DNA from: an uncultured Selenomonadaceae bacterium
Lineage (GTDB): Bacteria; Bacillota; Negativicutes; Selenomonadales; Selenomonadaceae
Length of the DNA stretch: 64,000 nucleotides
Assembly (NCBI GenBank): GCA_905235685.1
Contig: CAJOMO010000005.1
Location: forward strand, 62,001-126,000
Direction of reading: 5' to 3'
Shown here: positions 19,502 through 58,117 of the stretch, piece by piece
Position numbering within the stretch: the first letter of the stretch is position 1
How the letters are laid out: each line of letters opens with the position of its first letter
The notes under the pieces: generated by a model
The model's database searches: none
What the model was told of the DNA's origin: nothing
Seen by the model: the letters and a program-made list of their open reading frames with translations, nothing else
Made by a program: the position numbers and the translations under genes

Positions 19502-19654
19502 CTACTTTCTTTCTCATTGCAGAAAGAAAGTAGCAAAGAAAGGCTAGCCCGCGCTTATGTAATTCGCTTCCAGCTCATACTAAAGAGCATGCCTTGCTGC
19601 GCAAGCCACGCAGGGGCGCGGGCAGGGGTTCGGGGCGCGCGTCCGTGCGCGCCC
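19502..19654 (-). repeat. Three-stem intergenic element, copy 1 (inverse orientation, long form)
   Basis: Stem III: CTACTTTCTTTCT (19502-19514) with its perfect complement at 19521-19533. Stem II: GCCCGCGC (19547-19554) with GCGCGGGC (19616-19623). Stem I: GGGCGCGC (19633-19640) with GCGCGCCC (19647-19654); its loop read on the minus strand is ACGGAC. The plus strand then runs TATTTTTTT, so it may also terminate dnaE. The inner part (ACTAAAGAGCATGCCTTGCT and GCGCAAGCCACGCA) is shared with copy 5. Confidence 0.8.
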
Positions 19655-19689
19655 TATTTTTTTGTTGTGTTTAAAATTTTTGTTGCGGA

Positions 19690-20274
19690 TTATAAATTTT
19701 TTTTGTGGACGATAGAACTAATTGCAAAAGCCATCCCCGCAAGCGGTATTTGCCTGTCAACGGCGCCGCATTCAAACGCCGATTTCGGCATACCGTAAAC
19801 TATACAGCTTTGTTCGTCCTGACCCAATGTCAAAGCGCCGTGCTGTTTCATTTCAAGTAAGCCCGCCGCGCCGTCGTGTCCAATTCCCGTCAAAATTACG
19901 CCCAACGAAGTCGCTCCGGCTAATTCGGCAACCGATTTAAATAAAATGTCGACAGCCGGACGGCAGGAATGTACCGGCGGCGCCATAAAACAACGAATTT
20001 GCAAATTATCATTGTAGCGGCAAAGTTTCATGTGAATACCGCCAGGCGCTATGTAAACGCAGTCGTTTTGTATCAGTTCGCCGTTTTCGCCTTCCTTGAC
20101 AGTCAAAACGCATTCGCGGTTCATTCGGTCGGCAAACAATTTCGAAAAGCCCGCGGGAATATGTTGCACGATAACTATAGGTGGGAGCGGCGGACGTAAT
20201 CGCGGCAAGATCGTTGCCAGCGCCTCCACGCCGCCCGTTGATGATCCTATCGCTACTAAATTTATTTTGCCCAT
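19690..20274 (-). CDS. CheB-type protein-glutamate methylesterase, catalytic domain only
   Basis: 194 residues from the ATG at 20274, preceded by AGGTGGTGAG; the upstream in-frame start at 20313 has no SD. The CheB methylesterase domain is complete: active-site Ser in AIGSSTGGVEAL (about residue 12), His in IVIVQHIPAGFS, and Asp in LTGIGHDGAAGLLEM, with PPVHSCRPAVDILF between. CheB removes methyl groups from chemoreceptor glutamates. The N-terminal response-regulator domain that normally controls it is absent. No cheR, cheA or cheW lies nearby, though two chemoreceptors are encoded at 56-63 kb. It follows the PIN/TRAM gene by 22 bp on the same strand and is probably co-transcribed. Confidence 0.88.
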   Translation of the reverse strand: MGKINLVAIGSSTGGVEALATILPRLRPPLPPIVIVQHIPAGFSKLFADRMNRECVLTVKEGENGELIQNDCVYIAPGGIHMKLCRYNDNLQIRCFMAPPVHSCRPAVDILFKSVAELAGATSLGVILTGIGHDGAAGLLEMKQHGALTLGQDEQSCIVYGMPKSAFECGAVDRQIPLAGMAFAISSIVHKKNL

Positions 20275-20296
20275 CACTCTCACCACCTGCAAAATT

Positions 20297-21526
20297 TTAA
20301 CGCGGTTTAGCAAAAATCATACGCCCCGCCGAAGTTTGCAACGCACTCGTCACTTCAACGGATATTGTACGACTTAAATATCTGTGCCCATTTTCGATGA
20401 CAATCATTGTGCCGTCGTCCAAATACGCCACGCCTTGCCCGGGCTCTTTGCCATCGCGGACAACTTGAACTTTCATAGTTTCGCCCGGAATCACCACGGC
20501 TTTAACGGCGTTTGACAAATCATTGATATTCAGCACCTCGACGCCGCGCAGCTGAGCAACTTTATTCAGATTAAAATCGTTGGTTATAATTTTGCCGCCG
20601 ACTTTCTGCGCGAGCCGAACCAATTTTGAATCGACTTCGTGAATATCTTCAAAATCCACATTCATAACTTCGACGTCCATTGACGGGTTGTCTTGAATTT
20701 TTTGTAAAACGTCAAGCCCGCGTCTGCCGCGAACGCGCCGCAAACTATCCGGCGAATCGGCTATGTGCTGAACTTCCTCAAGCACGAATACCGGAATTAA
20801 CAGCGTGCCTTCCAAAAATCCGGTTTTGCAAATATCGGCAATTCGCCCGTCGATTATAACGTTTGTGTCGAGCAATTTATAATTTTTATTTTTATCGGCT
20901 TTGACAAGGTTAACTTTCGGCTGAGAATTTTCTTCAACCGGCGGCGTTTCAACGGGCTTTTCTGTTTCAGTTTGAGTTTCGCTTTGAACTTCCGCCGACT
21001 CAAGTTCCTTAGCCTTTGCCTCACGGTTACGTAAAATTTCTTTCAAGACACGCGGCACAAAGGCGAAACTGCCGGTTAATTCGTGGCGCTTTTTAATCGT
21101 TATGCGAATGCCCAATGTGCCGAGCACGATACTAAAAACAATCGGAATATAATTCCCAATGACAGGAACACGCGAAAAAGCATTACCCAATAAATCCGCA
21201 ATAATAAGTCCTATCGCCAAACCCACAGCGCCCGCAATTACGTCGTGAATCGGCATTTTACTAAGCTGTTTTTCGACAAATGCTGTGAAATTTCCCAGGC
21301 GGCGAATCAGAAACGGCGAGACAAACCAACCGCAAATTCCGCCCAATATCGCGCCGATTGATATGCAAATCAAACTGGCTAAAGTCAGCTGGAAAATTCC
21401 CAGGTCGACTGAAAAAAGTTCCGTGGAAATTAAATCTGCCATAAACGGGCTTGCAAATCGGCAAAGCGCTCCGCCCGCTATGATCAACGTTAATGTTATA
21501 AAAAATCTTATCACTTTATCGAGCAT
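20297..21526 (-). CDS. PIN/TRAM domain membrane protein (YacL-like)
   Basis: 409 residues. The first 140 residues contain four hydrophobic segments (for instance VIRFFITLTLIIAGGALC and VIAGAVGLAIGLIIADLLG). A Glu/Thr/Pro-rich linker (about 170-205) follows. Then comes a PIN nuclease-like domain starting KLLDTNVIIDGRIADI (about 217) with LEEVQ and TNDFNLNKVA, and last a TRAM RNA-binding domain (about 350-405, GQGVAYLDDGTMIVIENG). This is the Bacillus YacL/TTHA0540 family, of uncertain function but with PIN acidic residues retained. In many Firmicutes it lies near ispD/ispF, cysS or disA; none of these is seen here. The RBS is AGGAGGTG on the minus strand. Confidence 0.85.
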   Translation of the reverse strand: MLDKVIRFFITLTLIIAGGALCRFASPFMADLISTELFSVDLGIFQLTLASLICISIGAILGGICGWFVSPFLIRRLGNFTAFVEKQLSKMPIHDVIAGAVGLAIGLIIADLLGNAFSRVPVIGNYIPIVFSIVLGTLGIRITIKKRHELTGSFAFVPRVLKEILRNREAKAKELESAEVQSETQTETEKPVETPPVEENSQPKVNLVKADKNKNYKLLDTNVIIDGRIADICKTGFLEGTLLIPVFVLEEVQHIADSPDSLRRVRGRRGLDVLQKIQDNPSMDVEVMNVDFEDIHEVDSKLVRLAQKVGGKIITNDFNLNKVAQLRGVEVLNINDLSNAVKAVVIPGETMKVQVVRDGKEPGQGVAYLDDGTMIVIENGHRYLSRTISVEVTSALQTSAGRMIFAKPR

Positions 21527-21596
21527 AAGCTACACCTCCTCAATTCAAATTTAACATATTAATATGAAAATTTAATGAGCCGCCTCTGAAAATAAA

Positions 21597-21642
21597 TACG
21601 CCACCAACTTTTTAAACTGCAAAATTTTTGGTTGATGGCGCA
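21597..21642 (-). terminator. Probable terminator of the rfbD-cupin transcript
   Basis: CGCCACCAAC (21599-21608) pairs with GTTGATGGCG (21631-21640), one mismatch. On the minus strand the stem is followed by TATTTATTTT. Confidence 0.5.
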
Positions 21643-21662
21643 CTGGTTTTTTCCTGTTGGAT

Positions 21663-22016
21663 TTAATTATGCGCAGGAGTTGTAATTATTATGGCGATAA
21701 AAATTAAATCCTCTTCGCCGATATTTTCAATACCGTGCATTGAGCCGTCGGGGCAAAAAGTCGTTTCGCCGGCGTTGACTTCGTAAAATTTATCGTTATC
21801 GTTGTATTTGGCTTTTCCCTGCAAAATATGATAAGTTTCAGAATCGCCGTAGTGGTAATGAGCGCCGATTGACGCGCCGACCGGAATTGTGACTTTGGCG
21901 AACATTTTGCACTGTCCGAGCATTTCAGCGGGCGTCAAAAGGTGCGTGATTTGAATTTCGCCCTTACCGCCGGCTTTATTTTTCGCCGAAACAGTTTCGC
22001 TTTTAATCAGCGGCAT
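21663..22016 (-). CDS. Cupin domain protein
   Basis: 117 residues from the ATG at 22016 (GGAGGG 8 nt upstream; the TTG at 22031 is within the SD region). Cupin motif 1 is IPVGASIGAHYHYGDSETYHILQGKAKYND, seen as GAHYHYGDSETYHILQG (about residues 52-70). Motif 2 is FCPDGSMHGIENIG (about 86-99). The two histidines, the glutamate and the later histidine form a likely metal site. Single-domain cupins range from isomerases to regulators, so no reaction is assigned. It starts 15 bp downstream of rfbD on the same strand, so a role in sugar-nucleotide or surface polysaccharide metabolism is possible but unproven. Confidence 0.8.
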   Translation of the reverse strand: MPLIKSETVSAKNKAGGKGEIQITHLLTPAEMLGQCKMFAKVTIPVGASIGAHYHYGDSETYHILQGKAKYNDNDKFYEVNAGETTFCPDGSMHGIENIGEEDLIFIAIIITTPAHN

Positions 22017-22031
22017 AAAATTTCCCTCCAA

Positions 22032-22883
22032 TTATTTTTTAATGCTGCCGGTTTCAATTAAAAATCTGCGGACGGCGTCCTGCCACTCCGGCAAACGATT
22101 AAAACCGGCGTCGTCTAAACTTTTTTTGCTGAGTCTGGAATTAAGCGGACGTTTCGCGGGCGTGGGGTAATCAGCGCTGGGAATTTTCTCAACGTTAATT
22201 TTTTTGCCAACCTGCTTGAAAATTTCTTCGGCAAATTCCGCCCAACTGCAAAAGCCTTCGTTCGTGGCGTGGTAAATTCCGAATTTATCGCTGTGAATCA
22301 TATCCACCAAAAGCGGCGCAAGGTCAGCGGTATAAGTCGGGCTGCCAATCTGATCGTCGACTATTTGGAGTTTGCGGCGGCGCTTGCCGAGTTCCAGCAT
22401 TGTCTTGACGAAATTTTTACCATTCGCGCCGAAAACCCAACTGATTCTTACGATAAAATAATCGCGCAGAATTGCCGCAACGGAATTTTCGCCTAAAAGT
22501 TTGCTCGTGCCGTAAATGTTAATCGGATTTTTTTCGTCGTGAATTTCGTACGGTTCAGAGCCTTCGCCGCCGAAAACGTAATCGGTGCTGACGTAAAGCA
22601 TTTTGGCGCCAACTTCGCGGCAAGCCTCGGCAATGCGGCGCGTGCCCATTCCGTTAACAGTCAAGGCAAGTTCGGCTTCCTCTTCGGCTTTGTCAACGGC
22701 GGTATACGCCGCGCAATGAATGACGGCTTCGGGCTTTTTCTCAAGGATAAAACTTTTCGCGCCTTCCTCGGTTGTCAAATCAATTTCGTTTCGGGTTGTG
22801 CCGATAAAATCTTCGCCGCGGCGTTCGAGTTCTTTAACGACGTCGTGACCGAGCTGTCCGGTAATTCCTGTAACCAAAATCAT
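22032..22883 (-). CDS. rfbD: dTDP-4-dehydrorhamnose reductase
   Basis: 283 residues from the ATG at 22883. The GTG at 22898 sits directly on the AAGAGG and is less likely, but the 14-nt spacing to 22883 is long, so the start is uncertain. The last step of dTDP-L-rhamnose synthesis is NADPH reduction of the 4-keto sugar. An SDR-type Rossmann fold begins MILVTGITGQLGHDV. DAVIHCAAYTAVDKAEEE, the YVSTDYVF block, the catalytic Y-x-x-x-K as YGTSKLLGE, and RISWVFG all fit RfbD. The partner genes rfbB, rfbC and rfbA form a separate minus-strand run at 37.6-40.1 kb, so this gene is split from its pathway by about 15 kb. Confidence 0.92.
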   Translation of the reverse strand: MILVTGITGQLGHDVVKELERRGEDFIGTTRNEIDLTTEEGAKSFILEKKPEAVIHCAAYTAVDKAEEEAELALTVNGMGTRRIAEACREVGAKMLYVSTDYVFGGEGSEPYEIHDEKNPINIYGTSKLLGENSVAAILRDYFIVRISWVFGANGKNFVKTMLELGKRRRKLQIVDDQIGSPTYTADLAPLLVDMIHSDKFGIYHATNEGFCSWAEFAEEIFKQVGKKINVEKIPSADYPTPAKRPLNSRLSKKSLDDAGFNRLPEWQDAVRRFLIETGSIKK

Positions 22884-22901
22884 ATTAGGTTTATTCACCT
22901 C

Positions 22902-23279
22902 TTAATAAATTTCCGCGTCTTCGGGATGTTTTCTGATGTAGTCCACGTATTTATTGTACTCGTCTTCAAAACCTTTGTCTTCCATTGCGTCAAGCTGAAA
23001 GGACATAAGCGCAATAGCGGCGATACGCGAAATTTCGTGCGATGGAAAAGTTTTAATCAAATGAATAATTGCTTTGGCGCTCTCTTCGATAACCTCGCCG
23101 TCGTACTTTGCGAAACGATTCATTAACAGCAAATCGAACATTTGTTGTTCCAAAGGCGACCAACCAAGCGCAATTCCGGCATTAGAGCGCGGATATTGCC
23201 CGTGAATATCAATTTCTTCGTCAGTGTCGCCAATATCCGGAATATACACTTCGTCGTCGTCAATAATGTTTTTCCGCAT
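22902..23279 (-). CDS. Hypothetical protein upstream of rfbD
   Basis: 125 residues with a good SD (GGGAGGG) 9 nt before the ATG. It is acidic at the N-terminus (KNIIDDDEVYIPDIGDTDEE). A helical region follows (about residues 40-110, with SPLEQQMFDLLLMNRFAKYDGEVIEES read in parts) that looks like a stack of amphipathic helices. No signal peptide, transmembrane segment or known motif was recognised. It precedes rfbD by 19 bp and may be its first co-transcribed gene. I do not recognise the family. Confidence 0.6.
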   Translation of the reverse strand: MRKNIIDDDEVYIPDIGDTDEEIDIHGQYPRSNAGIALGWSPLEQQMFDLLLMNRFAKYDGEVIEESAKAIIHLIKTFPSHEISRIAAIALMSFQLDAMEDKGFEDEYNKYVDYIRKHPEDAEIY

Positions 23280-23406
23280 TTATAAAATCCCTCCCAATGA
23301 ATTTTTTGGTATAACCGCGCTTAGTATATACCGATTGGCAATTTAAATCAAGTAAAGTGTTTTATGCGGGCGCGGCAGGATTTTTTTCAGCGGGCGTCAA
23401 ATAAAC

Positions 23407-23435
23407 TTGCAATGCTAAAAAGCAGATTGTTAATT
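23407..23435 (+). promoter_or_regulatory. Possible promoter of the 1828-residue protein gene
   Basis: TTGCAA at 23407-23412 and TTAATT at 23430-23435, 17-bp spacer, close to AAGGAGGG at 23442. The -10 is weak. Confidence 0.35.
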
Positions 23436-23457
23436 TTTTGTTAAGGAGGGATTCCCA

Positions 23458-26400
23458 ATGGATAGTCTAAGCTCCGAAATGATTGAACAACTTCGAGGTT
23501 TATTTGGGCAAATGGTTGAATCGCGACGGCATTTGCGCCCGATTTTATCAGACATTGCCGCCTCGATTGACAAGGGCTTTTTCATTGACGCTGATTCTGA
23601 AGAAGTAAATCAGCTGTTGAAAAAAATTTTGGAAGTGCAGGAGCAACTTTCCGGTGTCGAACAGCTTAAACGCGCCGCCAATTCAAAAAAACTTGAGCAA
23701 GTCGATAAAAGCCTGGGTTTATTGGAGCAAAATTGTAAACGCGACGAAATTAATTCAACCCTTGCGCGAATTTCCACTTTGGTTGTGGATTCGGAAGATC
23801 AAGCGATTTTGGACGCCGTTATGAAGGTTAAAATGCAGGCTGAACATTTGAGAAACAAATCCGGCAAATTAGAGCCCGCGCAATTCGATAAGCAAGCCGA
23901 GAGGTTTGTTTTGCTCGTTGAAATTATCGACAACGCGGAGGCTTTTTCCGCCAATGATTTTTTGAAAATCTCCGCCAGTTTCCAGGACAACCCGCTAATC
24001 GGTATGATTTTGACGAGTCATATTTTGCATTTTCCGCAGCCGGTTGAGGAAGAAGATTACGCTGAAGAAACTCCGCCGCCCAATGACGATAAGGAAAGTG
24101 CTTCGACTGAGCCGACTAAACACAAATTGAGCGCGGTTCGTCGGCAGGCGGATAAAATTCAGCCCGACCTTTCGCTGGTGCTTGTTGACGAAAAAAATTT
24201 TGTTATCGAAAAGGCGACCGTGAAAAAGTTGCTCACGATTAAATCTTTCAACAACAAGGTACATGAACTTTTTGACGCGGTTGATCCGATGCCGATTTTC
24301 AAAGTGCTGATTAAAACCAGGATATTTTTCAGCGACGACCCGAAGGATATTTTGGTTTCCGGCAAATTGACGAAAAAAATTGCCGCGCTTGTTCCGCGCA
24401 TTTTCAACAAACTTTTCAGTTGGGGAATTGTCGACAAAATCACGTGGCGCGGACGCGAATTTTATTTTCTTAATGATTTTGGCTTAGATTTGTGCATTCG
24501 TTCGTTTACGCACACTTCGCCGCCTTCGCCCGCTGAAAATTATTTTTCCGAAATGGTAAATTCTCTGCAATTTTCGATTATGCTCATGTCGGAGGCGCGG
24601 CTCAAAGGCGACCTCAAAATCAAATTCAATTACAATCCGAAAATACCGGCGGCGCGCGCGCTTATGCTTTCCAAAGAAGGCTCTATCGATGTAATTTTAA
24701 TGTTCTCGCTGATTTTGCTCGGCGAAAAGTGGGAACTTCAAATTGCGCGTTTCAAGCTTTTAATCGAACACGAAATTGATTCGCCTGCTGAATTGAAGGC
24801 GGTATTTTTATTTGCGTTTTCGGATAAAGATTTGCCGTGGCTGAAATTTTTCGACACCACCAAATTCAAGAAGATAAAATTTTTTATGCTGACGTGGGAC
24901 GGACTTTTGGATCAAGACGGCAAGGAAGTTGATTTGGACAATTGGAAAGACCTTTGCAATATTTCCGCGCCTATGGAAAATCCCAATTTCAGAAATTTTA
25001 AGCCGAAGGGCAGACCCAAAAAAAATGTCACTGTCGAAGATATTTTTGGATTTAAAACCGCCAAAAAACCAGCCGCGCCGAAAACTAATCCGCAGCCTAA
25101 AGAGCCCGAAATAAACCTTTTCGATTTTGACACCGCCGACGAAGATATTTCCGCGGAAGAAATTTTTGAAACCGAAATTGACGAGCCGATTGTTGACGTG
25201 GAAACCGAGCCGGTTATTGAAGTCGATGTTGAAACTGAAACTGAAATTATTTTTGAGCCGGAAGCCGAAACTAAAATTGAGCCGACGCCCGCGCCGGAGC
25301 CGGAAATTGAGATTGTCAAAACTTCGGACGAAGATATTGTAACGGCGGATATTTTGAGCAGTGTAACTAATCTTTTCAAAATCGGCGCGAATGGGCGCGG
25401 TATGCTGGCGTTGCACGCGCTGAAGGATTATTTTTCGGGCGAAGACGACGGCGAATTGGCGGTTGAATCGCTCACGAAAGAAATTGGCTTTATTCTTGAC
25501 GACCCGCTGACTTTGCGCAATCTGCATAATTTTGACACGTTTAACTTTTGGACGGGCGGCGCGGAAATTCCTAAGGCGAATCTCGGCAACACGTTTGATT
25601 ATCTGAATCTAGCCGCGACGATTAAAAATTTCTTTGCGCCCGCGAATCCTACCAGTTATCAACTTCAAAAACTTTGGAAACAAATTAACGAAGATAAGGC
25701 TAACAGCGTACTGAAAACTTTGCCCGCCGCGAAAAATCTTATCAGCGTTTTTAACATTTTCACTGAAAAAACTCACCGCGCCTTTGCCGATTGCCTTAGT
25801 CAGAGCGGCGATACCGGAGAAAATAAATTCAAAGCCGTGCTCGCGCAGATTGAGAATATGAAAAATGTTATCGAAAATGTTTTGCACTCGGACGTGAATC
25901 ACCGCCGCGTCAAAGACGTTATCACTCAGCTTTTCCGCAACAACGGCTTAGCGCGGAAATATCTTGACGTGGATAAATTTTCTGTGGACGAGATTTTGGA
26001 TTTTTGCCGCCGCTTCGAAAAGGTTGACCTGCGCGAGATTGTTGCCGACGCGAACGCGACGATTGACGACGAACTTTTTTCTGAAGATAAAATCGGCGAA
26101 TTTCTTGACTACGTTTGGGACAATCCGGTTGTGCAGATTGTTCGCCGCGAACACGAGCCATTTCACGGACCGAAACGCAAAAAAGTTACCGTGACGATGA
26201 CGCAACTTTTGACTACGCTTTTAAGTTATGTTCACGCGAAGAAAAATCTTGAAATTTCGGGCGGAAATGCTAAGCAGAGCGCGCCGGTTGATAAAGCGCT
26301 GGATATTTTAACCGATTTGAAAAAGCAAATCAATCGCGTAGATAAACGTTTGAATTTGGGCAATTTGGTTTTCCGCGCGTTTGTCGAAAATCTGATTAAG

Positions 26401-30055: not shown

Positions 30056-30172
30056 CCGCCCAAGGATGGGCGGCGAACCCCGCCCGCTGCTAATGAGCGT
30101 GAAGCGAATTATTCAGCGGGCAGTTTTCTTTCTTTGCTAAGCGTTTCTTTCTTTCCGAAAAGAAAGAAATGC
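30056..30172 (+). repeat. Three-stem intergenic element, copy 2
   Basis: Stem I: CCGCCCA (30056-30062), loop AGGA, TGGGCGG (30067-30073). Then CGAACCCC. Stem II: GCCCGCTG (30082-30089) with CAGCGGGC (30114-30121). Linker TTTTCTTTCTTTGCT. Stem III: GCGTTTCTTTCTTT (30141-30154) with AAAGAAAGAAATGC (30159-30172). Stem I differs in sequence from copies 3 and 4 but keeps full pairing. Confidence 0.8.
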
Positions 30173-30188
30173 TGTATTGATAATTTGT

Positions 30189-48106: not shown

Positions 48107-48212
48107 GGCGCGCACGGACGCGCGCCCCGCCCGCGCTAGTCGCGTGATGCGACTAATGCGGGCAAGTTTTCTTTCTTTGCTTTAGCGTTTCTTTCTTTTT
48201 CGAAAGAAATGC
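48107..48212 (+). repeat. Three-stem intergenic element, copy 3
   Basis: Stem I: GGCGCGC (48107-48113), loop ACGGAC, GCGCGCC (48120-48126). Stem II: GCCCGC (48129-48134) with GCGGGC (48158-48163), enclosing TAGTCGC/GCGACTA. Linker TTTTCTTTCTTTGCTTTA. Stem III: GCGTTTCTTTC (48185-48195) with GAAAGAAATGC (48202-48212). Confidence 0.8.
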
Positions 48213-48276
48213 GTTAAAAAAAAACCGCCTTTAAATTGGCGGCAATTTTTTTATATGGGGGATATTTCATGTTGTC

Positions 48277-48846
48277 TTAGTGGTGACGCGCCGAATTTGC
48301 CATAGCAATCAAATCGCCAGTTTCGACTCCGGCGGGCGCGTAAAGAACGATTCTATCTGAAATTTTTGTAGCGCTGCCGTTGACTGCATAGCACGCGCCA
48401 TCAATGAAATCGCAAATGCTACGCTGTTGGTCAATGGGCAGGCGCTCATAATTCACGACCACAGCTTTGTTGGCGAGAATATCATCGGTAATGCGGATAA
48501 CTTCCTGGTTGTATTCGGCGGGATTATAAAGTCTCATAACAAGTTCGGGCGCTTTGACGACTTTAAGATTAGGACGATCATTAGCCGAAGCATACGCGTC
48601 ATAACGGACGCCATTTACAGAAATAGTGCCGCTGTGAGAAGTGCTGACATAACCAGGCGGATATTTTTCCGTGGCGAAATGAGCGCCGCCGCCAGCAGCA
48701 ACCGCCGCACGCTTAACGGTCGCTTCAGTGCGTACCTGCGATTTAACTTCTTCCTGCTTTGCCTCAACTTTCGCTTCGGCTTCCTCTTCCGGCATTGTCT
48801 CCAGTGGCATTACCACGTCAACAATTTTCTTAATCCAACTCAACAT
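48277..48846 (-). CDS. sepF: Cell division protein SepF
   Basis: 189 residues with GAGGGG upstream of the ATG. The N-terminal amphipathic membrane-targeting helix (LSWIKKIVDVVM) is followed by a Glu/Lys-rich linker and a Gly/Ala-rich stretch. The C-terminal SepF domain (about residues 95-180) has VVKAPELVMRLYNPAEYNQ, RITDDILANKAVVVNYERL, RSICDFIDGACYAVNGSATKIS and VLYAPAGVE. SepF polymerises and anchors FtsZ rings to the membrane in Firmicutes and actinobacteria. It stands alone here, without the ylm genes usually found next to it. Confidence 0.93.
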   Translation of the reverse strand: MLSWIKKIVDVVMPLETMPEEEAEAKVEAKQEEVKSQVRTEATVKRAAVAAGGGAHFATEKYPPGYVSTSHSGTISVNGVRYDAYASANDRPNLKVVKAPELVMRLYNPAEYNQEVIRITDDILANKAVVVNYERLPIDQQRSICDFIDGACYAVNGSATKISDRIVLYAPAGVETGDLIAMANSARHH

Positions 48847-50117: not shown

Positions 50118-50136
50118 AATTTGACCACTGAAAAGA

Positions 50137-50244
50137 GGCGCGCACGGACGCGCGCCCGAACCCCGCCGCGAATTAGTCGACCGGAAGTCGACTATCTGAG
50201 CGGCTGTTTTCTTTGCAACTTTCTTTTGCGCCCAAAAGAAAGTT
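50137..50244 (+). repeat. Three-stem intergenic element, copy 4
   Basis: Stem I: GGCGCGC (50137-50143), loop ACGGAC, GCGCGCC (50150-50156). Then CGAACCCC. Stem II: GCCGC (50165-50169) with GCGGC (50200-50204), enclosing TAGTCGAC/GTCGACTA. Linker TGTTTTCTTTGC. Stem III: AACTTTCTTTT (50217-50227) with AAAAGAAAGTT (50234-50244). Confidence 0.8.
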
Positions 50245-50301
50245 GATAACTTGAATTAAAAATCCGGTTGCGAAATTCCTTGCCTCAAAAAAATTTCCCA
50301 C

Positions 50302-50330
50302 TTGCGAAAAGAAATTACCAGTGCTATAAT
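50302..50330 (+). promoter_or_regulatory. Strong promoter of the rpsF-ssb-rpsR operon
   Basis: TTGCGA at 50302-50307, 17-bp spacer with TG before the -10, TATAAT at 50325-50330. The leader to the rpsF start is about 60 nt. Confidence 0.8.
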
Positions 50331-50350
50331 TCTATTTCGGTTACTTCCCT

Positions 50351-50369
50351 GCTCGGAGCAATACCGAGC
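50351..50369 (+). promoter_or_regulatory. Hairpin in the rpsF leader, possible ribosomal-protein binding site
   Basis: GCTCGG (50351-50356) pairs with CCGAGC (50364-50369) around AGCAATA, 12 nt before GGAGG. Its position and the CCG in the 3' arm recall S6:S18-binding leaders of rpsF operons, but the full motif was not confirmed. Confidence 0.4.
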
Positions 50370-50396
50370 CACAGACCACGGAGGAGGTGTATTTTT

Positions 50397-50690: not shown

Positions 50691-50691
50691 T

Positions 50692-51078
50692 ATGAACAAG
50701 GTAATTCTTTCCGGAAATTTGACGCGCGACCCCGAAATTCGTTACACGCAAAGCGGCAAGGCAGTTGCACGAACTGCTATTGCTGTAAATCGCCGTTTCA
50801 ACAGAGATACCGTTGACTTTTTTAATTTGACGGCGTGGGAAAAGGAAGCTGAATTTTGCAGTCGCTATCTTAAAAAAGGCTCTAGCGTTATCGTTGAGGG
50901 GCGCGTCGAAAACAACAATTACGAAGGCAAAGACGGCGTGAAACATTACAGCGTTGAAATTCAAGTTGAGCATTTTGAATTTGCAAGCAGTTCGCGCAGG
51001 CAAGGCGGCACGACTGAAAACGAATCCGAAGCCGAGCCCGAAGCAGATCCGCCGTTCGACGATAACGTACCATTTTAA
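50692..51078 (+). CDS. ssb: Single-stranded DNA-binding protein
   Basis: 128 residues from the ATG at 50692. The OB fold runs from [25 protein letters not shown] through [25 protein letters not shown] (read in parts) to about residue 105. A short acidic linker ([12 protein letters not shown]) leads to the tip PFDDNVPF, the conserved tail that binds replication and repair partners. Shorter than E. coli SSB because the linker is brief. Co-transcribed with rpsF and rpsR. Confidence 0.96.
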
Positions 51079-51095
51079 TCGAAAGGAGCTTGCAT

Positions 51096-51326
51096 ATGCG
51101 TAGAGAGAGAGGCAGACGCCCGCGCAAGAAAGTTTGTGCGTTTTGCGTGGACAAAGTCGAGCAGATTGATTATAAAGACGCGGCTAAACTTCGCCGTTTC
51201 ATTACCGAGCGCGGCAAAATTCTTCCGCGCCGCATTAGCGGAAACTGCGCCAAACATCAGCGCCAGGTTACCGTGGCTATCAAGCGCGCGCGTAACATTG
51301 CACTTTTGCCGTTCACCGCAGAATAA
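51096..51326 (+). CDS. rpsR: Ribosomal protein S18
   Basis: 76 residues from the ATG at 51096, 9 nt after AAAGGAG. Basic N-terminus, then [32 protein letters not shown] (read in parts) and [24 protein letters not shown]. The Cys pair plus the later Cys/His make this the zinc-binding (C+) type of S18. It pairs with S6 on the 30S platform. A terminator with T7 lies 26 bp after the stop. Confidence 0.97.
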
Positions 51327-51351
51327 ATTTTGAGGTCGGTTAATCTTTATG

Positions 51352-51374
51352 GGAGTCTGCGGACTCCTTTTTTT
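51352..51374 (+). terminator. Terminator of the rpsF-ssb-rpsR operon
   Basis: GGAGTC (51352-51357) pairs with GACTCC (51362-51367), then T7 at 51368-51374. Confidence 0.85.
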
Positions 51375-51387
51375 GTTGGTAAATTTT

Positions 51388-51936
51388 ATGGACAGAAAAT
51401 TTTTGCCGCTCTTAACCCTGTTAATCTGCGCGACGGCGGGATTTATTTATTGGCAAATGATCTACCTGCCGATTCAAAGCGAAATTTTAAAATTCAAAGC
51501 AGAAACGCGACAAATCCAATTAATACGCGCGGAAATTTCCAAATTGCAAACGCGGCACGCCAATTTCGCTGATTTTGTCGAACTCAATGACGAACGCCTT
51601 GCCTTCGCGCAGGAATACTTGCCCGCCGATATGGACGACGAAAAATTTATTGCCGAACTTTACAATTTAGCGGGCGCGAAAAATATCTTGATTTATTCGG
51701 TGCAGACCGGCGAAATTTCCGGCGGCGAAGTTCAAACGCAGTCCGTGAAAATTCGCGCGGAGGCTGAATTTATCTCGTTGCTGAATTTTATTCGTGAAGT
51801 GCTTGACGGCGGGCGAATGGTTAATTTTAAAAATTTTTCCATCGAAAGCGACGGCAAGACGAATATTTTGGACTGCGAATTGGAATTTTCAATTTTTGCG
51901 GCGAATATCGAAAAAATGAATGTTGCAAAGCGATAG
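51388..51936 (+). CDS. PilO-like type IV pilus/secretion membrane protein
   Basis: 182 residues from the ATG at 51388. The longer frame from 51349 would begin inside the rpsR terminator. One N-terminal membrane helix (FLPLLTLLICATAGFIYWQMIYLP) is followed by a coiled-coil stretch (SEILKFKAETRQIQLIRAEI) and a C-terminal alpha/beta domain (EKFIAELYNLAGAKNILIYS to LECELEFSIF-like DCELEFSIF). This is the PilO/GspM-type layout, an inner-membrane alignment protein of type IV pilus machines. It could belong with the secretin at 0.8 kb, though the genes are 50 kb apart. Its 3' end is duplicated directly downstream. Confidence 0.6.
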   Translation: MDRKFLPLLTLLICATAGFIYWQMIYLPIQSEILKFKAETRQIQLIRAEISKLQTRHANFADFVELNDERLAFAQEYLPADMDDEKFIAELYNLAGAKNILIYSVQTGEISGGEVQTQSVKIRAEAEFISLLNFIREVLDGGRMVNFKNFSIESDGKTNILDCELEFSIFAANIEKMNVAKR

Positions 51937-52130
51937 ATATAAAAATTCGCGCAGAGGCTGAATTTATCTCGTTGCTGAATTTTATTCGTGAAATGCTTAA
52001 CGGTGGGCGAATGGTTAATTTCGAAAATTTTTCCATCGAAAGCGACGGCAAGACGAATATTTTGGACTGCGAATTGGAATTTTCAATTTTCGCGGCGAAT
52101 ATCGAAAAAATGAATGTTGCAAAACGCTAG
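51748..52130 (+). repeat. Tandem duplication of the PilO-like gene 3' end (period 194 bp)
   Basis: 51748-51936 and 51942-52130 are about 95 percent alike by eye, both ending in AATGTTGCAAA(G/A)CG and a TAG stop. The second unit has no start codon in the right frame. Confidence 0.92.
51942..52130 (+). pseudogene. Orphan second copy of the PilO-like C-terminus
   Basis: The frame encodes the same last about 60 residues as the PilO-like protein (IRAEAEFISLLNFIREML, then SIESDGKTNILDCELEF) but is cut off from any start. Its last bases hold the -35 box of the terD promoter. It is a fossil of a tandem duplication, with only silent or mild changes so far. Confidence 0.8.
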
Positions 52131-52145
52131 ATTTTGTGATAGATT
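52117..52145 (+). promoter_or_regulatory. Predicted promoter of the first TerD gene
   Basis: TTGCAA at 52117-52122 (inside the duplicated 3' end), 17-bp spacer, TAGATT at 52140-52145. Confidence 0.5.
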
Positions 52146-52184
52146 ATTAGCGGTTGTTTTTATACTTGAAGGAGGAATTTTTTT

Positions 52185-52766
52185 ATGGCTGTAAGTTTAG
52201 CTAAAGGTCAGAAAGTTGATTTGACGAAAACGAATCCTGGCTTGAAGGAAATTTTAATCGGGCTGGGCTGGGATACTAACAAATACGACGGCGGCAAAGA
52301 TTTCGATTTGGACGCGTCCGTTTTCTTGCTCGGCGCGAATGGCAAAGTTCGCAGCGACGCTGATTTTGTTTTCTACGGCAATTTGAAACACGAATCCGGC
52401 GGCGTAGAACACATGGGCGATAACCTCACCGGCAAGGGCGAAGGCGACGACGAAGAAATCAAAGTTTACCTTGATAAAGTTCCTGCTGACGTTGAGAAAA
52501 TTGACTTCACCGTCACGATTTACGAAGCGGAACAACGCAAACAGAATTTCGGGCAAGTCGAAAATGCGTTTATTCGCGTGGTGAATGCGGCAAACAACGA
52601 AGAATTAATCCGCTACGATTTGGGCGAAGATTTTTCGATTGAAACCGCGGTTGTTATCGGCGAACTTTATCGCAACAAGGGCGAATGGAAATTTAATGCG
52701 ATTGGCTCTGGCTTTGAAGGCGGACTTGCGTCGCTTGGTCGCAATTACGGCGTCAATGTCGGCTAA
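52185..52766 (+). CDS. TerD-family stress protein 1
   Basis: 193 residues, ATG behind GAAGGAGGA. TerD domains bind calcium and occur in tellurite-resistance and general stress systems; their action is unsettled. Landmarks: [69 protein letters not shown] (read as [15 protein letters not shown], the acidic calcium site), [12 protein letters not shown] and [11 protein letters not shown]. The acidic residues are intact. A second TerD gene follows 161 bp later and then a calcium-pump gene. Confidence 0.95.
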
Positions 52767-52858
52767 TTGATTAATCGGTAAAAAAATTTTTCTGCAGGGA
52801 GCGGGGACTTTGCGGAGTTTAGGGTATAGTGGAAAGGGTACAGGGACTAGTGAAAAAT

Positions 52859-52892
52859 CCCTAGCCCCTAGCCCCTAACCCCTAACCCCTAA
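52859..52892 (+). repeat. Heptamer tandem repeat CCCCTA(A/G), about five units
   Basis: CCCTAG, CCCCTAG, then three CCCCTAA (52872-52892), between the two terD genes. The region before it is G-rich (52798-52850). The reverse strand reads TTAGGGG, like a telomere-type G-tract repeat. Confidence 0.9.
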
Positions 52893-52927
52893 TGCCCTGC
52901 TCCAATTTTTTTGAAAGGAAGATTAAC

Positions 52928-53530
52928 ATGTCTGTAAATTTGAAGAAGGGGCAAAAAGTAAATCTGGTAAAATCCGACGGCAAAAAACTTTCGGTATTGG
53001 TGGTCGGGCTCGGTTGGGACGCGGCGGAACAGCCCAGCGGCGGCTTTTTCAAGAGACTTTTCAGCGGCAAGAAAGATATTGACTGCGACGCCTCGGTTTT
53101 CGTTTGCAAAAACGGCAAACTTACCAGCGTTGACGACGTCGTTTATTTTGGAAATTTAGAACACGCGAGCGGCGCGATTAAGCACATGGGCGATAATTTG
53201 ACGGGCGAAGGCGAAGGCGACGACGAAGAAATTTTCGTTGACCTTGATAAAATTCCCGCGGCGTATGATAAACTTGTTTTCGTGGTGAATATTTTCAAAG
53301 CGGTTGAACGCAAACAGCATTTCGGCATGATTAAAAACGCGTTTATCCGCATTGTGGACGGCGATACCCGCGAGGAACTTTGCCGCTACAATTTGAGCGA
53401 AGATTATACCGGTATGTTGGCGATGATTGCCGGCGAAGTTTACCGTCGTAACGGCGAATGGAAATTCAATGCGATTGGCAACGGTACGACAGATCCTGGT
53501 TTGCAGGAGCTCATAAAACGTTTCGCGTAA
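52928..53530 (+). CDS. TerD-family stress protein 2
   Basis: 200 residues from the ATG at 52928 with GAAAGGAAG upstream. Same domain as the previous gene but diverged: SVNLKKGQKVNLVK, VVGLGWDAAEQ, a short insert with [36 protein letters not shown] (calcium site), FGMIKNAFIRIVDG and [11 protein letters not shown]. The insert of about 10 residues near position 40 is not in the first copy. The pump gene starts 16 bp after the stop behind GGAGG, so the two are probably co-transcribed. Confidence 0.95.
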   Translation: MSVNLKKGQKVNLVKSDGKKLSVLVVGLGWDAAEQPSGGFFKRLFSGKKDIDCDASVFVCKNGKLTSVDDVVYFGNLEHASGAIKHMGDNLTGEGEGDDEEIFVDLDKIPAAYDKLVFVVNIFKAVERKQHFGMIKNAFIRIVDGDTREELCRYNLSEDYTGMLAMIAGEVYRRNGEWKFNAIGNGTTDPGLQELIKRFA

Positions 53531-53546
53531 ATTGGAGGCTTTTTAG

Positions 53547-56198
53547 TTGAAGATAACAGGATTAACCGACGCGCAGGTTCAGGAAAATAAATCGAAATAC
53601 GGCGACAATTCAATCACCGAGCAGGCGCGCGAAGGTTTTTGGGACAAACTTAAGGGCAATTTCGACGACCCGATTATCAAGATTTTAATTTTTGCACTTA
53701 TTCTAAATGTATTCTTCGCGTTTATGGGCAAAGCGGAATGGTACGAATCCGTCGGTATCGCAATGGCGGTTTTGTTGGCAACTTTCGTATCGACTTTCTC
53801 CGAATTTAAAAACGAAAGCGCTTTTCAGAAATTGCAGGGCGAGGCGTCCTTGATTAAGTGCAAAGTCTATCGCAACGGCGCGGTTGTCGAAATTCCGATT
53901 AACGATATAACGATGGGCGATTGCGTTTTGTTGCAGAGCGGCGATAAGATACCGGCTGACGGCGTGATTATCGACGGCTCAATCACCGTTGACCAATCCA
54001 TTTTGAACGGCGAAGCTAAGGAAGAAACTAAGACGCCCGCGCCCGACGCTAAAACTGACGGCGAATCTGCGAAAAGCGACGACCTTTTGAATCCGCACAA
54101 AGTATTTCGCGGCGCGGTTGTAGCTGGCGGCAATGCGGTTATGCGCACGGTTACGCTCGGCGATAAAACTTTCTACGGCAAAATCGCTGAGGAACTTCAG
54201 ATTGACGAAGACCGCGATACTCCGCTGAAATTGAAACTCGGCGACCTTGCCGATCAGATTAGTAAATTCGGTTATATCGGCGGCGTGGCTATTGCGGTTG
54301 CGTTTATGTTCCAGCGCATTGTCATTCACAACAATTTTGATATGGCGCTGATTTCGGCGTATTGTTCGGACTGGATGAATTTGCTGAACAGTTTGGTTGA
54401 AGCGGTTATGCTGGCGGTTATAATTATTGTTATGGCTGTTCCGGAAGGTTTGCCGCTTATGATAGCGATTGTTTCAGCGCAGAATATGGGCAAAATGCTC
54501 AAGGACAATGTTTTGGTTAGAAAAATTTCCGGAATTGAGACGGCGGGCAGCTTGAATCTGCTTTTCAGCGATAAAACCGGCACTATAACCAAAGGGCAGC
54601 TTGAGGCGGTAAGTTTCCTTGACGGCACGGCGAAAAGTTATAAATCCTACAGCGAACTCGGCAAGGCGCTTGGTGAATTGATGTCGCTGTCCGTTCGCTA
54701 CAACACGGCGGCGGTTATCAATGGCGATAAAGCTGTTGGCGGCAATGCGACCGAGCGCGCGCTGTTAGGTTTTGTTTTGGGCAAAGATCATGACGTCAAC
54801 GTCAAAGTTGGTGAAACCGTACCATTTAACAGCAAAAATAAATATTCTTTGGCAAAAGTTACCGGCGCGTATAATTTGACATTGGCGAAAGGCGCGCCTG
54901 AGCGTCTGCTTGACCGCTGCAGTTTTTACTACGACAGCCAGGGCAAGAAACAGCCGCTGAATGGCGTAGACCACATTAACCGCGAAATTGATAAACTTGC
55001 CGAGCGCGCAATTCGTGTTTTGGCGTTGGCGACTTATGACGGCGATATTGTCAATGGTGAATTGCCGGAAACCGGATTAACTTTCGTAGGCGCGGTTGGT
55101 ATTCGCGATGAAGTTCGTCCGGAATCTCCTATCGCTCTCGCGCAGGTGCAGCAGGCGGGCGTTCAAGTCATTATGATAACCGGCGACCGCAAGGAAACCG
55201 CCATGGCTATTTCCAAAGAGGCGGGTTTGCTGAAAAATCCGGAAGACGTTGTTTTGACTTCCGCCGAATTGAACGCAATGAGCGACGACGAAGTTAAAAA
55301 AGTTTTGCCAAAAATCCGCGTTATCGCGCGCGCTTTGCCGACCGATAAAAGCCGCCTTGTGCGTATCGCGCAGGAGCTGAATATGGTTGTCGGTATGACG
55401 GGCGACGGCGTTAACGATTCACCGGCGCTGAAAAAGGCTGACGTTGGTTTTGCAATGGGCGACGGTACGGAAGTTGCTAAGGAAGCTAGCGAAATTGTTA
55501 TTCTGGATAATAATTTTAGTTCGATTGGCAAGGCGATTTTGTACGGGCGCACGATTTTTAACAGCATTAGAAAATTTATAATCTTCCAACTCACAATTAA
55601 TGTTAGCGCGGTTATGATTTCGTTTGTTTGTCCGCTGATTGGCATTGAAAATCCGCTGTCAATCACGCAAATTCTTTGGGTTAATCTGGTTATGGATACA
55701 TTAGCGGCGCTTGCCTTTGGCGGCGAACCGGCGCTTGACCGCTACATGGAAGAGAAACCTAAAAAGCGCGACGAAAAAATTATCAACGGCTATATGTACA
55801 GCGAAATTGGCGTTGGCTCGGTGTGGTGTTTTGCAATGGGTTTAGTTTTCCTGCTTACCGAATTTTCGCATGAGCATTTCAGAGTCGGCGCTGAAGACGC
55901 GAATATGTATCTGATGACGGGCTACTTTGCGTTCTTTATTTTTATGGCGGTGTTCAACGCGTTCAACGCGCGCACCGACCGAATGAATTTGTTTGACAAT
56001 ATCGGCGGCAACACGGGCTTTTTGGAAGTCATGGGCTTAATCGTGGTCGTGCAGGTGATTATGACGTATTTTGGCGGCGTAATTCTGCGCTGCTTCGGCT
56101 TGACGCTCACTGAATGGGCTTTTGTCATTGGCATGGCGTTTACGATTATTCCGGTGGATTTAATCCGAAAAGCTGTGGTTGGCAGTTCGACGAAATAA
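53547..56198 (+). CDS. P-type calcium-transporting ATPase (PMCA-like)
   Basis: 883 residues from the TTG at 53547 (GGAGG 11 nt upstream). A P2-type ATPase with phosphorylation motif FSDKTGTITKG (Asp about 342), an actuator with DQSILNGEAKEETK, PEGLPLMIA in M4 with the PEGLP calcium-site element, nucleotide-site KGAPERLL, and the hinge MTGDGVNDSPALKKADVGFAMG. Ten membrane helices are expected; the C-terminal half has NVSAVMISF and LWVNLVMDTLAALA, which fit calcium pumps. It expels calcium from the cytoplasm. Its coupling to calcium-binding TerD proteins suggests a shared role in calcium-linked stress. Confidence 0.94.
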   Translation: MKITGLTDAQVQENKSKYGDNSITEQAREGFWDKLKGNFDDPIIKILIFALILNVFFAFMGKAEWYESVGIAMAVLLATFVSTFSEFKNESAFQKLQGEASLIKCKVYRNGAVVEIPINDITMGDCVLLQSGDKIPADGVIIDGSITVDQSILNGEAKEETKTPAPDAKTDGESAKSDDLLNPHKVFRGAVVAGGNAVMRTVTLGDKTFYGKIAEELQIDEDRDTPLKLKLGDLADQISKFGYIGGVAIAVAFMFQRIVIHNNFDMALISAYCSDWMNLLNSLVEAVMLAVIIIVMAVPEGLPLMIAIVSAQNMGKMLKDNVLVRKISGIETAGSLNLLFSDKTGTITKGQLEAVSFLDGTAKSYKSYSELGKALGELMSLSVRYNTAAVINGDKAVGGNATERALLGFVLGKDHDVNVKVGETVPFNSKNKYSLAKVTGAYNLTLAKGAPERLLDRCSFYYDSQGKKQPLNGVDHINREIDKLAERAIRVLALATYDGDIVNGELPETGLTFVGAVGIRDEVRPESPIALAQVQQAGVQVIMITGDRKETAMAISKEAGLLKNPEDVVLTSAELNAMSDDEVKKVLPKIRVIARALPTDKSRLVRIAQELNMVVGMTGDGVNDSPALKKADVGFAMGDGTEVAKEASEIVILDNNFSSIGKAILYGRTIFNSIRKFIIFQLTINVSAVMISFVCPLIGIENPLSITQILWVNLVMDTLAALAFGGEPALDRYMEEKPKKRDEKIINGYMYSEIGVGSVWCFAMGLVFLLTEFSHEHFRVGAEDANMYLMTGYFAFFIFMAVFNAFNARTDRMNLFDNIGGNTGFLEVMGLIVVVQVIMTYFGGVILRCFGLTLTEWAFVIGMAFTIIPVDLIRKAVVGSSTK

Positions 56199-56221
56199 AA
56201 TCTTAGCGCGAAAAATTTTTT

Positions 56222-56261
56222 GACAGCAGTTGATTTTTTCATTGACTGCTGTTATTTTTTT
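56222..56261 (+). terminator. Terminator after the calcium ATPase gene
   Basis: ACAGCAGT (56223-56230) pairs with ACTGCTGT (56244-56251), then TATTTTTTT. Confidence 0.8.
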
Positions 56262-56289
56262 GTAAAAGAAAATTGCGGGGGTGTATTTG

Positions 56290-57975
56290 ATGGGGCTTAA
56301 GAGCAAGGTGATAATTTCAGTCAACGCGACGGTTATATTCGTCTGCGTGTGTATGGGCGTGTTGGGTTACATGAGCGCCAACAGCGGCTTCAAAAAGGCT
56401 TTGGAGATGAAGGCAACCAGTGACGTATCGGCGCTGGCGGAGATTATGAATTATCGTTACCCTGGCGCGTGGAATTTGCGCGACGGCGTTTTGTACAAGG
56501 GCGATATGAAAATTGACGGCGCTGAAGAAATTGTTGATTCGCTGAGTCAAGTTACCGGCGGCAAGGTTACATTTTTCAACGGCGATACGCGGGTTGCCAC
56601 GAATGTTAAAGATTCTTCCGGCAATCGGCAAGTTGGCACAAAGGCTTCGGCTGAAGTTATCGATAAGGTTTTGCGCGGCGGTAATGATTTTCTCGGCACG
56701 GCGAATGTTATGGGCGAGGAACACCACGCCGCTTATCGTCCCTTGAAAGACACTTCCGGAAAAACAATCGGTATGCTATTTGTCGGCGTCAGCGTTCACG
56801 AAATGGACGACGTTACCGGCGCTTTGATTCGCTCGATTATTATTGTCATGGCGGTTATCGTGATTGGCTGCGCGGTTTTGTCGAATGTGGCTGTTGGTAA
56901 AATGCTCGGCACGCTTGAGGAAGTTGTTAATGCTATGGGCAAAATTTCCCACGGCGATTTGACGATTAACGATATTGTTGTGAAGTCCAAAGATGAAATT
57001 GGAACATTGGCGACGGAAATTAACGATATGAAATCCAATTTGAAACATTTGCTGACAAATATTGCAAACAGTTCGGAGCGTGTTGCGGCGTCTTCCGAAG
57101 AGTTAACCGCCGCCACTTCCGAAGGCTCAAGCGCTATTCACAATATGGCACAGAGTACCGCCGAAATGTCCAATTACGCCGAAGAGCAGACTCACACCGT
57201 GGCAAACCTGCGCGAAATTCTTCAAAATTTGGAAAAGCGCATGGAAGAACTTTATGACGATACGATGTTAATGGATCAAGTTGCTGTCGATAGCGCGAAA
57301 TGTACGGTTGAAGGTAAGGAACAGGTTAACGTGGCGATTGACCAAATGAAGGATATTACCGAAAAATCGAATGAATCAATGCGCGTTGTTGAAAATCTCG
57401 GTAAACGCTCTGACGAAATCGGCGAAATTGTCAACACCATTTCTGAAATTGCCGACCAGACAAATCTTTTGGCGTTGAATGCGGCGATTGAAGCGGCAAG
57501 AGCCGGTGAACAGGGACGAGGTTTTGCTGTCGTTGCCGAGGAAGTTCGGAAATTGGCGGAACAATCCAGTCAAGCGGCTCAAAATATCGCGCAGTTGATT
57601 TCAAGTATACAAGGCGAAACTCAAAACGCCGTCAAAGCGATTGAGCGCGGCACGTCCGGCGTCAAAGACGGTATGAGTGCTGTTTTGGATACCGGCACAG
57701 CATTTGACAGAATCGGCACGCAAGTTGAGCGGCTCACCGGCAACGTTGCAACCAGTATAACGCGCATTGAGGCTATGAATAACGGTAGCGCGGTAATTTT
57801 GAACGCGGTTAATCGCACTGAAGAAATTGCTAAGAAAACCAATGAAAATACCACGTCGATTAGCGCCATTGCCGAGGAACAAACCGCCATGATTAGCGAA
57901 ATTGCCGAGGCAAGTAAACAGCTTGCCGAACTTGCAACCGCTATGCAAAATGAAGTCGCCAGATTTAAATTGTAA
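56290..57975 (+). CDS. Methyl-accepting chemotaxis protein with periplasmic Cache-type sensor
   Basis: 561 residues from the ATG at 56290, 9 nt after GGGG; the GTG at 56281 is too close. First membrane helix [21 protein letters not shown], a periplasmic domain of about 150 residues with [30 protein letters not shown] and [19 protein letters not shown] (single Cache-like), second helix [26 protein letters not shown], then the signalling domain. The tip is [41 protein letters not shown] (read as tip [20 protein letters not shown]). Methylation helices are rich in Glu/Gln. The ligand is unknown; this Cache type often senses small organic acids. Confidence 0.94.
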
Positions 57976-57984
57976 GCGTTATCA

Positions 57985-58117
57985 ACTTTCTTTTGGCGCA
58001 AAAGAAAGTAGCAAAGAAAACAGCGGCGCGGATTGTCACATCACGTGATACTAAAGAGCATGCCTTGCTTACGCAAGCCACGCAAGCGCGCCGCGGGGGC
58101 GCTCATCCTTGAGCGCC
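57985..58117 (-). repeat. Three-stem intergenic element, copy 5 (inverse orientation, long form)
   Basis: Stem III: ACTTTCTTTT (57985-57994) with AAAAGAAAGT (58000-58009). Stem II: GCGGCGCG (58023-58030) with CGCGCCGC (58087-58094), enclosing ACTAAAGAGCATGCCTTGCT as in copy 1. Stem I: GGCGCTCA (58098-58105) with TGAGCGCC (58110-58117); the minus-strand loop is AGGA. It lies between the chemoreceptor and the DUF1385 gene. Confidence 0.8.

Follow-up and report, generated by a model that had tools for sequence, protein, structure and literature searches.

A dispersed three-stem element in a Selenomonad genome, with a conserved GGA loop, a predicted triple-helix 3′ half and a candidate link to CsrA

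We examined a 64,000-nucleotide stretch of DNA (the window) from an uncultured, apparently rumen-dwelling Selenomonadaceae bacterium (contig CAJOMO010000005.1, positions 62,001 to 126,000). Its intergenic regions hold five copies of a folded element of about 110 bases, which recurs in about 100 copies across the genome. A sequence-only reading of the window had proposed these five copies, and their coordinates, orientations and order of parts (stem I, stem II, pyrimidine linker, stem III; Table 1) were all confirmed, as were the variants of stem I that it listed and the constancy of GGA in the loop. No copy in the window, or elsewhere in this genome, lies inside a predicted gene. Each window copy does follow a stop codon, as had been claimed, although its orientation relative to that gene varies. 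The minimum free energy z-scores of the five copies range from -4.5 to -6.4, and 0 of 200 shuffled sequences folded as well, on both strands. At gathering thresholds, the Rfam families matched the window's tRNA only; weak matches of copy 3 (an FdoG1 thermometer and others) were dismissed as chance, all being far below their gathering scores.

A genome-wide search might have returned these five copies only; many more were found, with additional compensatory changes. The strict pattern TTTCTTTGCT-gap-TTTCTTT gave 52 matches in the 1.96 Mb genome, corresponding to 50 elements after removal of double reports, and 0 matches in the reversed genome. A looser pattern gave 122 matches, including several double reports, or about 115 copies; its reversed control is uninformative, given the mirror symmetry of the element. 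We also built a covariance model (R1), which comprises the stem I pairs only, as MAFFT misaligned stem III, and which was used for counting only. Scoring at most 58 candidates per genome, it detected at least 58 copies in the window's genome and matched 54 of the 66 genomes of the genus, with counts per genome from none to at least 58, and the strict pattern found 118 copies in one relative (G009). An exact match was present in 89 stretches of a collection of 2.9 million viral contigs. A text search of 5.4 million papers for the element's literal motif strings returned no match.

Table 1. Parts of the five element copies, in window coordinates
Feature	Position	Strand	Basis or remark
Copy 1, whole element	19502..19654	-	orthologous site in G004 and G118 also element-bearing
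Copy 1 stem I, GGGCGCGC-ACGGAC-GCGCGCCC	19633..19654	-	fold; CANGGAYG loop
Copy 1 nested 25-bp palindrome GCATGCCTTGCTGCGCAAGCCACGC, in stem II	19587..19611	+	found in other copies' stem II or stem I loop
Copy 1 third strand CTTTCTTT	19535..19542	-	mirror match to purine arm GAAAGAAA
Copy 1 stem III, CTACTTTCTTTCT..AGAAAGAAAGTAG	19502..19533	-	fold
Copy 2, whole element	30056..30172	+	fold
Copy 2 stem I, CCGCCCA-AGGA-TGGGCGG	30056..30073	+	fold
Copy 2 stem II, TAAT-GA-GC/GC-GA-ATTA, tandem G-A mismatches	30082..30121	+	fold
Copy 2 third strand TTTTCTTTCTTT	30124..30135	+	mirror match to AAAAGAAAGAAA over 12 nt
Copy 2 stem III	30140..30173	+	fold
Copy 3, whole element	48107..48212	+	G118 and G018 carry an element here too, with other stems
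Copy 3 stem I, GGCGCGC-ACGGAC-GCGCGCC	48107..48126	+	fold
Copy 3 stem II, inner TAGTCGC-GTGAT-GCGACTA	48129..48163	+	fold
Copy 3 third strand TTTTCTTTCTTT	48167..48178	+	mirror comparison of linker and stem III
Copy 3 stem III	48185..48212	+	fold
Copy 4, whole element	50137..50244	+	decayed remnant at orthologous site in G118
Copy 4 stem I, GGCGCGC-ACGGAC-GCGCGCC	50137..50156	+	fold; reverse strand plus CTTTT terminator-like
Copy 4 stem II, inner TAGTCGAC-CGGAA-GTCGACTA	50165..50204	+	fold
Copy 4 third strand TTTTCTTT	50207..50214	+	mirror match to AAAAGAAA
Copy 4 stem III, CAACTTTCTTTTG..CAAAAGAAAGTTG	50216..50245	+	fold
Copy 5, whole element	57985..58117	-	fold
Copy 5 stem I, GGCGCTCA-AGGA-TGAGCGCC	58098..58117	-	fold; + strand plus ATTTTT terminator-like
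Copy 5 nested 26-bp palindrome	58058..58083	+	sequence comparison
Copy 5 third strand TTTTCTTT	58013..58020	-	mirror match to AAAAGAAA
Copy 5 stem III	57985..58009	-	fold

Stem I is a GC-rich helix whose closing C-G pair holds the hexaloop A-N-G-G-A-Y, and its stem bases vary with compensation. Stem II combines an outer GC helix with an inner hairpin (loops such as GTGAT, CGGAA and AGGAT), whose pairs also covary. The covariation score was 0.738 for 40 distinct stem I sequences (0.165 when shuffled) and 0.973 for 26 distinct stem II sequences (0.220 when shuffled), with 0 of 500 shuffles scoring as high in either case. Because both sets consist of stems chosen for pairing, we added a test that uses sequence alone, asking how often a CANGGAYG lying up to 220 nt 5′ of the linker is extended by at least five further Watson–Crick pairs. 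Such pairs flank 41 of 42 sites near a linker in the window's genome (1 of 23 elsewhere), 16 of 16 in the sister species G118 (1 of 54 elsewhere) and 27 of 32 in relatives (2 of 28 elsewhere). The C-ANGGAY-G arrangement is present in all 23 distinct stem I sequences of the window's genome and all 24 of its relatives, sets preselected for an ANGGAY loop in a stem; 13 of the former 23 loops are ACGGAC, ACGGAT or ATGGAC, and 10 are AAGGAY. Tandem G-A mismatches occur in this genome only in stem II of the TAATGAGC..GCGAATTA type. These comparisons support well the element's predicted structure and selection on its fold. The interpretation first offered for the five copies is thereby upheld in part: selection acts on a folded molecule, in a strand-specific manner and with far stronger support than five copies allow, while the predicted third strand, the CsrA/RsmE loop, the TwoAYGGAY kinship and the cassette exchange described below had been overlooked.

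What had been described as a linker shows mirror covariation that indicates a conserved third strand of stem III. In most copies, its sequence mirrors that of the pyrimidine arm of stem III (for example, CTTTTCTTT with GAAAAGAAA, TTTTCTTTCTTT with AAAAGAAAGAAA and CTTTCTTT with GAAAGAAA). Beyond a fixed seven-base core, the third-strand match extends by 1.63 nt in the window's genome, 0.81 nt in relatives and 0.52 nt in other taxa, compared with 0.78, 0.29 and 0.21 nt under permutation (0 of 5000 permutations each time). Among asymmetric cases in the window's genome and its sister, mirror matches outnumber direct ones 39 to 1, an excess that rules out a direct repeat; Watson–Crick pairing between linker and purine arm is ruled out by the same mirror-not-direct evidence. 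The corresponding count in other taxa is an ambiguous 39 to 32, which we think arises from the last C of a pseudoknot helix preceding the linker. Mirror covariation would be expected if the linker joined a U·A-U/C+·G-C triple helix as its parallel pyrimidine third strand. The linker would then extend along stem III from the loop down to the base of the stem, the geometry that a third strand needs. A triple helix may be the form adopted in vivo.

A linker–stem III mirror repeat is also a signature of H-DNA. A structure that acts only as DNA (H-DNA or a cruciform), serving for instance as a site for gyrase or a nucleoid protein where convergent genes end, would explain why the hairpins fold on both strands and why the element shows no orientation bias. 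However, in lower stem III, G-T wobbles are common and A-C mispairs are almost absent, a strand asymmetry that favors the sense strand as the folded molecule, and the stem I loop equals the optimum of an RNA-binding protein on one strand only. We consider a purely DNA-level structure improbable, the least likely of the alternatives.

The 3′ half of the element extends far beyond the Selenomonads. In a scan of one genome per species, the matches listed for the 20-base motif TTTCTTTGSTDACTTTCTTT include Burkholderiales, Xanthomonadales, Neisseriales, Desulfuromonadales, Bacteroidota and Selenomonads. In the other taxa, bases of the stem III loop are complementary to those immediately 5′ of the linker (TCGCC/GGCGA, GGTGC/GCACC, GTGGCC/GGCCAC, GCCTTGAT/ATCAAGGC and others), and 38 of 79 distinct pairs form a helix of at least 5 bp; permuted sets averaged 6.2 such pairs and never exceeded 14 (0 of 1000 permutations). 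The predicted arrangement is an H-type pseudoknot in which the linker is loop 1, and its stem 1 is also found in some relatives. Triple-helix H-type pseudoknots are known from telomerase RNA and the SAM-II and preQ1-II riboswitches. The element resembles them in having a loop 1 of pyrimidines that is aligned in parallel with the stem 2 purine strand and, in non-Selenomonad and some Selenomonad forms, in its closure by loop pairing; it differs in being a genomic repeat and in lacking stem 1 in the window's genome, where a plain triplex hairpin is predicted.

Across 18 loci from other taxa, Rfam returned only a fluoride riboswitch and Bp1_684 (RF02421), a SIPHT small RNA candidate from Burkholderia. 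Bp1_684 starts in the module's AAAGAAAG arm in Caballeronia (L102), but spans only the 3′ arm onward, without upstream hairpins or linker. At L102, L105, L106, L113 and other Caballeronia/Paraburkholderia loci, modules form head-to-head inverted pairs about 420–500 bp apart; the sequence beside each copy is similar, reminiscent of one larger element whose ends are inverted. Other Burkholderiales loci (L107, L119, L121) carry a conserved hairpin upstream of the module, TTTGAGC-GNA-GCGAGTTT, with tandem G-A mismatches; it resembles the mismatched stem II type of the window's genome.

A weak Rfam match in Lysobacter connected the element's 5′ half to TwoAYGGAY (RF01731, clan CL00106), its closest known family. 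Published accounts describe a pair of AYGGAY hairpins whose outer stem is poorly conserved (PMC2864571), and propose CsrA binding while reporting tandem G-A mismatches in one stem (PMC4333381). We searched for RF01731 in 28 genomes and read by eye the sequence downstream of 24 matches. A pyrimidine module, recognisable or degenerate, follows 22 of them, with a literal TTTCTTT in 18. Matches above the 43-bit gathering threshold come from Hydrocarboniphaga and an Oceanospirillaceae genome, and those below it from Lysobacter, Pseudomonas and Selenomonads; all six above-threshold matches carry the module, one clearly intact and the rest variant or degenerate. The published description, as far as its accessible text goes, does not mention a downstream module, nor does it cover a triple helix or pseudoknot there, high-copy dispersion or cassette turnover. 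Within the same set of matches (L381–L407), those of G074 have an enclosing outer stem, and in some G067 modules ACGGATCGAT replaces the second pyrimidine strand.

The window's element shares with TwoAYGGAY its tandem GGA-loop hairpins, tandem G-A mismatches in some stems, the sense strand and gamma-proteobacterial members. It differs in that the window's copies are sub-threshold, the second loop is not AYGGAY and the first loop is AAGGAY in about half of the cases. RF01731 has no match in the window's genome even at E ≤ 0.05, and scores about 28 bits in four relatives (G009, G015, G109 and G055). The second loop is not AYGGAY in the window's genome, where stem II loops are GTGAT, CGGAA and similar; G009 copies do have such a loop (ATGGAT, L386 and L396). 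Kinship of stems I and II with TwoAYGGAY is well supported, and we regard the window's element as a variant that falls below the family's threshold.

The stem I loop equals the optimum published for RsmE, 5′-A/U-CANGGANG-U/A in PMC6849547 (citing Schubert 2007), and the CsrA-type CANGGANG is presented in a hairpin loop at 41 of the 42 CANGGAYG sites near a linker in the window's genome. That genome encodes one CsrA (E = 1.7e-24), as does most of the genus. In other taxa, an ANGGA hexaloop hairpin lies upstream of the module at 15 of 135 loci, compared with 0 of 1199 control windows, and such hairpins precede the module only in CsrA-bearing genomes, except for one 1.8 Mb metagenome-assembled genome. 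CsrA is encoded by 10 of the 11 genomes in which the sampled element bears an ANGGA hairpin and by 12 of the 38 others (Fisher p = 0.001, not phylogeny-corrected). With moderate confidence, we regard CsrA sequestration by a sense-strand RNA as the best functional reading of these sequences. Like the CsrB/RsmZ-type sponge RNAs, the elements present CANGGANG in hairpin loops, at several sites per cell and in the presence of CsrA; in contrast to them, where many sites share one small RNA, one or two predicted sites per element are spread over about 100 loci.

We then consider where the copies lie, using gene calls from a simple codon-usage script. In element orientation, the neighboring genes are convergent at 17 copies, (-,-) at 16, (+,+) at 10 and divergent at 2, and stop codons are close to both element ends. 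In background gaps of at least 120 bp, 2 of 26 are convergent and 6 of 26 divergent. This excess of convergent pairs would also follow if the element were a bidirectional intrinsic terminator, with stem I and a T-run acting on one strand and stem II and the U-rich linker on the other. Where the right-hand gene points toward the element, its stop codon is in most copies 6–17 nt away from the core of stem III; on the other side, stop codons mostly lie 12–35 nt from stem I. On the reverse strand, stem I is terminator-like in copies 4 and 5, and some but not all copies show there a GC hairpin followed by a T-run. The stretch preceding stem I is A-rich, averaging 6.3 of 10 nt where the right-hand gene needs a terminator and 4.8 otherwise, but this difference is weak. 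Termination does not require an invariant GGA hexaloop, a match between a third strand and stem III or pseudoknot pairing by the loop, and the forms in other taxa have no GC hairpin right before the pyrimidine linker. Termination as the element's main role is accordingly unlikely.

Turnover between species was followed in the sister species G118, the nearest relative available, where both flanks of 20 of the genome's copies were located in 1.36 Mb. At flanks about 90% identical, 19 of the 20 sites keep an element or a remnant: 12 are strictly intact, 4 nearly intact, 2 are remnants with internal deletions (L034, L035) and one records a loss whose scar keeps the element's 3′ end (L032); the last (L033) has no recognisable element. 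Distant relatives are uninformative on empty sites, as synteny differs. Across 11 comparable pairs with flanks 87–93% identical, element identity is 0.71 between orthologs and 0.69 between non-orthologs, and the true ortholog is the best match in 3 pairs only. The third strand and purine arm change jointly at a single site (at L023, for example, TTTTTCTTT/AAAAAGAAA in one species and CTTTCTTT/GAAAGAAA in the other). Exchange of whole cassettes among copies would fit this pattern, presumably through recombination, whereas compensated point mutation at such divergence would not. The differences between copies appear to stem largely from cassette exchange between loci rather than from stepwise point mutation.

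A selfish origin has to be weighed against these data. A non-autonomous repeat (REP- or MITE-like), whose single-stranded DNA hairpins are recognised by a transposase or recombinase and whose gene-end location reflects tolerance only, would be compatible with copy numbers from none to 118 among species of one genus, intergenic placement that avoids divergent promoters, copy 1 adjoining an older stem III remnant at the same stop codon, and a mini-palindrome nested in loops and flanked by AGGA on either side. However, occupied or scarred sites at 19 of 20 loci, including the 3′-end scar at L032, give no sign of recent insertion, and none of the 20 was cleanly empty with a duplicated target. A transposon end had been named as an alternative, and no transposon signature was found. 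The elements share with REP/BIME and RAYT-associated repeats their high copy number, hairpins and location at gene 3′ ends; they differ in being longer, three-part and loop-conserved with a cross-phylum 3′ module, and the genome has no Y1 transposase (no match to PF01797). Neither the G-T/A-C asymmetry nor CsrA-consensus loops would be expected of a selfish repeat, which we judge the strongest of the alternatives, though still rather unlikely.

The palindrome itself, GCATGC[CT]TTGC..GCAA[AG]CCACGC, is 25–26 bp long and lies within the inner block that copies 1 and 5 were correctly said to share. At the loci examined, it occurs only inside element loops, in either orientation; its other carriers are L018, L027, L040, L043, L048, L049 and loci in G118. 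In stem I loops, it usually has AGGA on both flanks. It could be a mini-element or an extension of the hairpin.

We favor, at a probability of about one half, a structured RNA read from the strand that carries the GGA loops. Its 5′ half would be a TwoAYGGAY-type hairpin pair, in which hairpin I, and hairpin II in some relatives, presents the CsrA-binding loop. Its 3′ half would be a triple helix, with the linker lying in the major groove of stem III, locked in many other bacteria as an H-type pseudoknot, and may act as a compact, decay-resistant 3′ cap. Because the copies sit at gene ends, the RNA would be produced as a 3′ untranslated region or by read-through, and about 100 copies would form a distributed CsrA sink. 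Sites would remain stable while recombination swaps whole hairpin cassettes, of which only fold-keeping combinations survive. Transcription, CsrA binding and a sponge or 3′-end function are predictions from sequence.

Several observations weigh against this RNA-based reading. The element is dispensable, because 12 of the 66 genus genomes have no model match. Most copies in the window's genome offer a single CsrA site, because the stem II pentaloop (GTGAT, CGGAA) is a poor one, and the association with CsrA is confounded with phylogeny. The pseudoknot helix is absent from this genome, a reduced form whose stem III loops are too short (mostly 2–8 nt), and the minimum free energy fold is unable to display a triple helix. 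Co-directional gene pairs show no sense bias (sense versus antisense: 10 versus 16 in the window's genome, 16 versus 8 in relatives and 23 versus 32 in other taxa). Consequently, many copies would need antisense transcription or a promoter of their own, which weakens a pure 3′ untranslated region model and keeps the terminator and selfish-repeat explanations alive.

More tentatively, TwoAYGGAY may be no more than the front half of an RNA superfamily, modular and cross-phylum, whose defining part is a 3′ triple-helix pseudoknot. In lineages with CsrA, this front half would carry CsrA sites; in those that lack it (Burkholderiales, Neisseriales, Bacteroidota), other hairpins would take its place. 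Gene-end sites would stay fixed while cassettes are exchanged genome-wide. For a family without an assigned function since 2010, and with CsrA binding proposed in 2014, the link to the module would supply a complete architecture and a large natural alignment. If true, a CsrA sink distributed over about 100 copies would be an unusual way of setting the level of a global regulator, and cassette exchange under structural constraint would explain repeats that are hyper-covariant between close species.

Two features adjoin the window's copies. Between a stop codon and copy 1, positions 19472–19500 hold the older stem III remnant (TCGGCATTTCTTTTCTCGAAAAA), which matches the element type that G004 carries there. 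Just beyond copy 3, positions 48225–48242 form a terminator-like hairpin, CCGCCTTTAAATTGGCGG, bordered by T-runs at either end, beside a minus-strand gene (48277–48846) that we take to be SepF-like; because this hairpin adjoins it, copy 3 is not the sole terminator candidate there.

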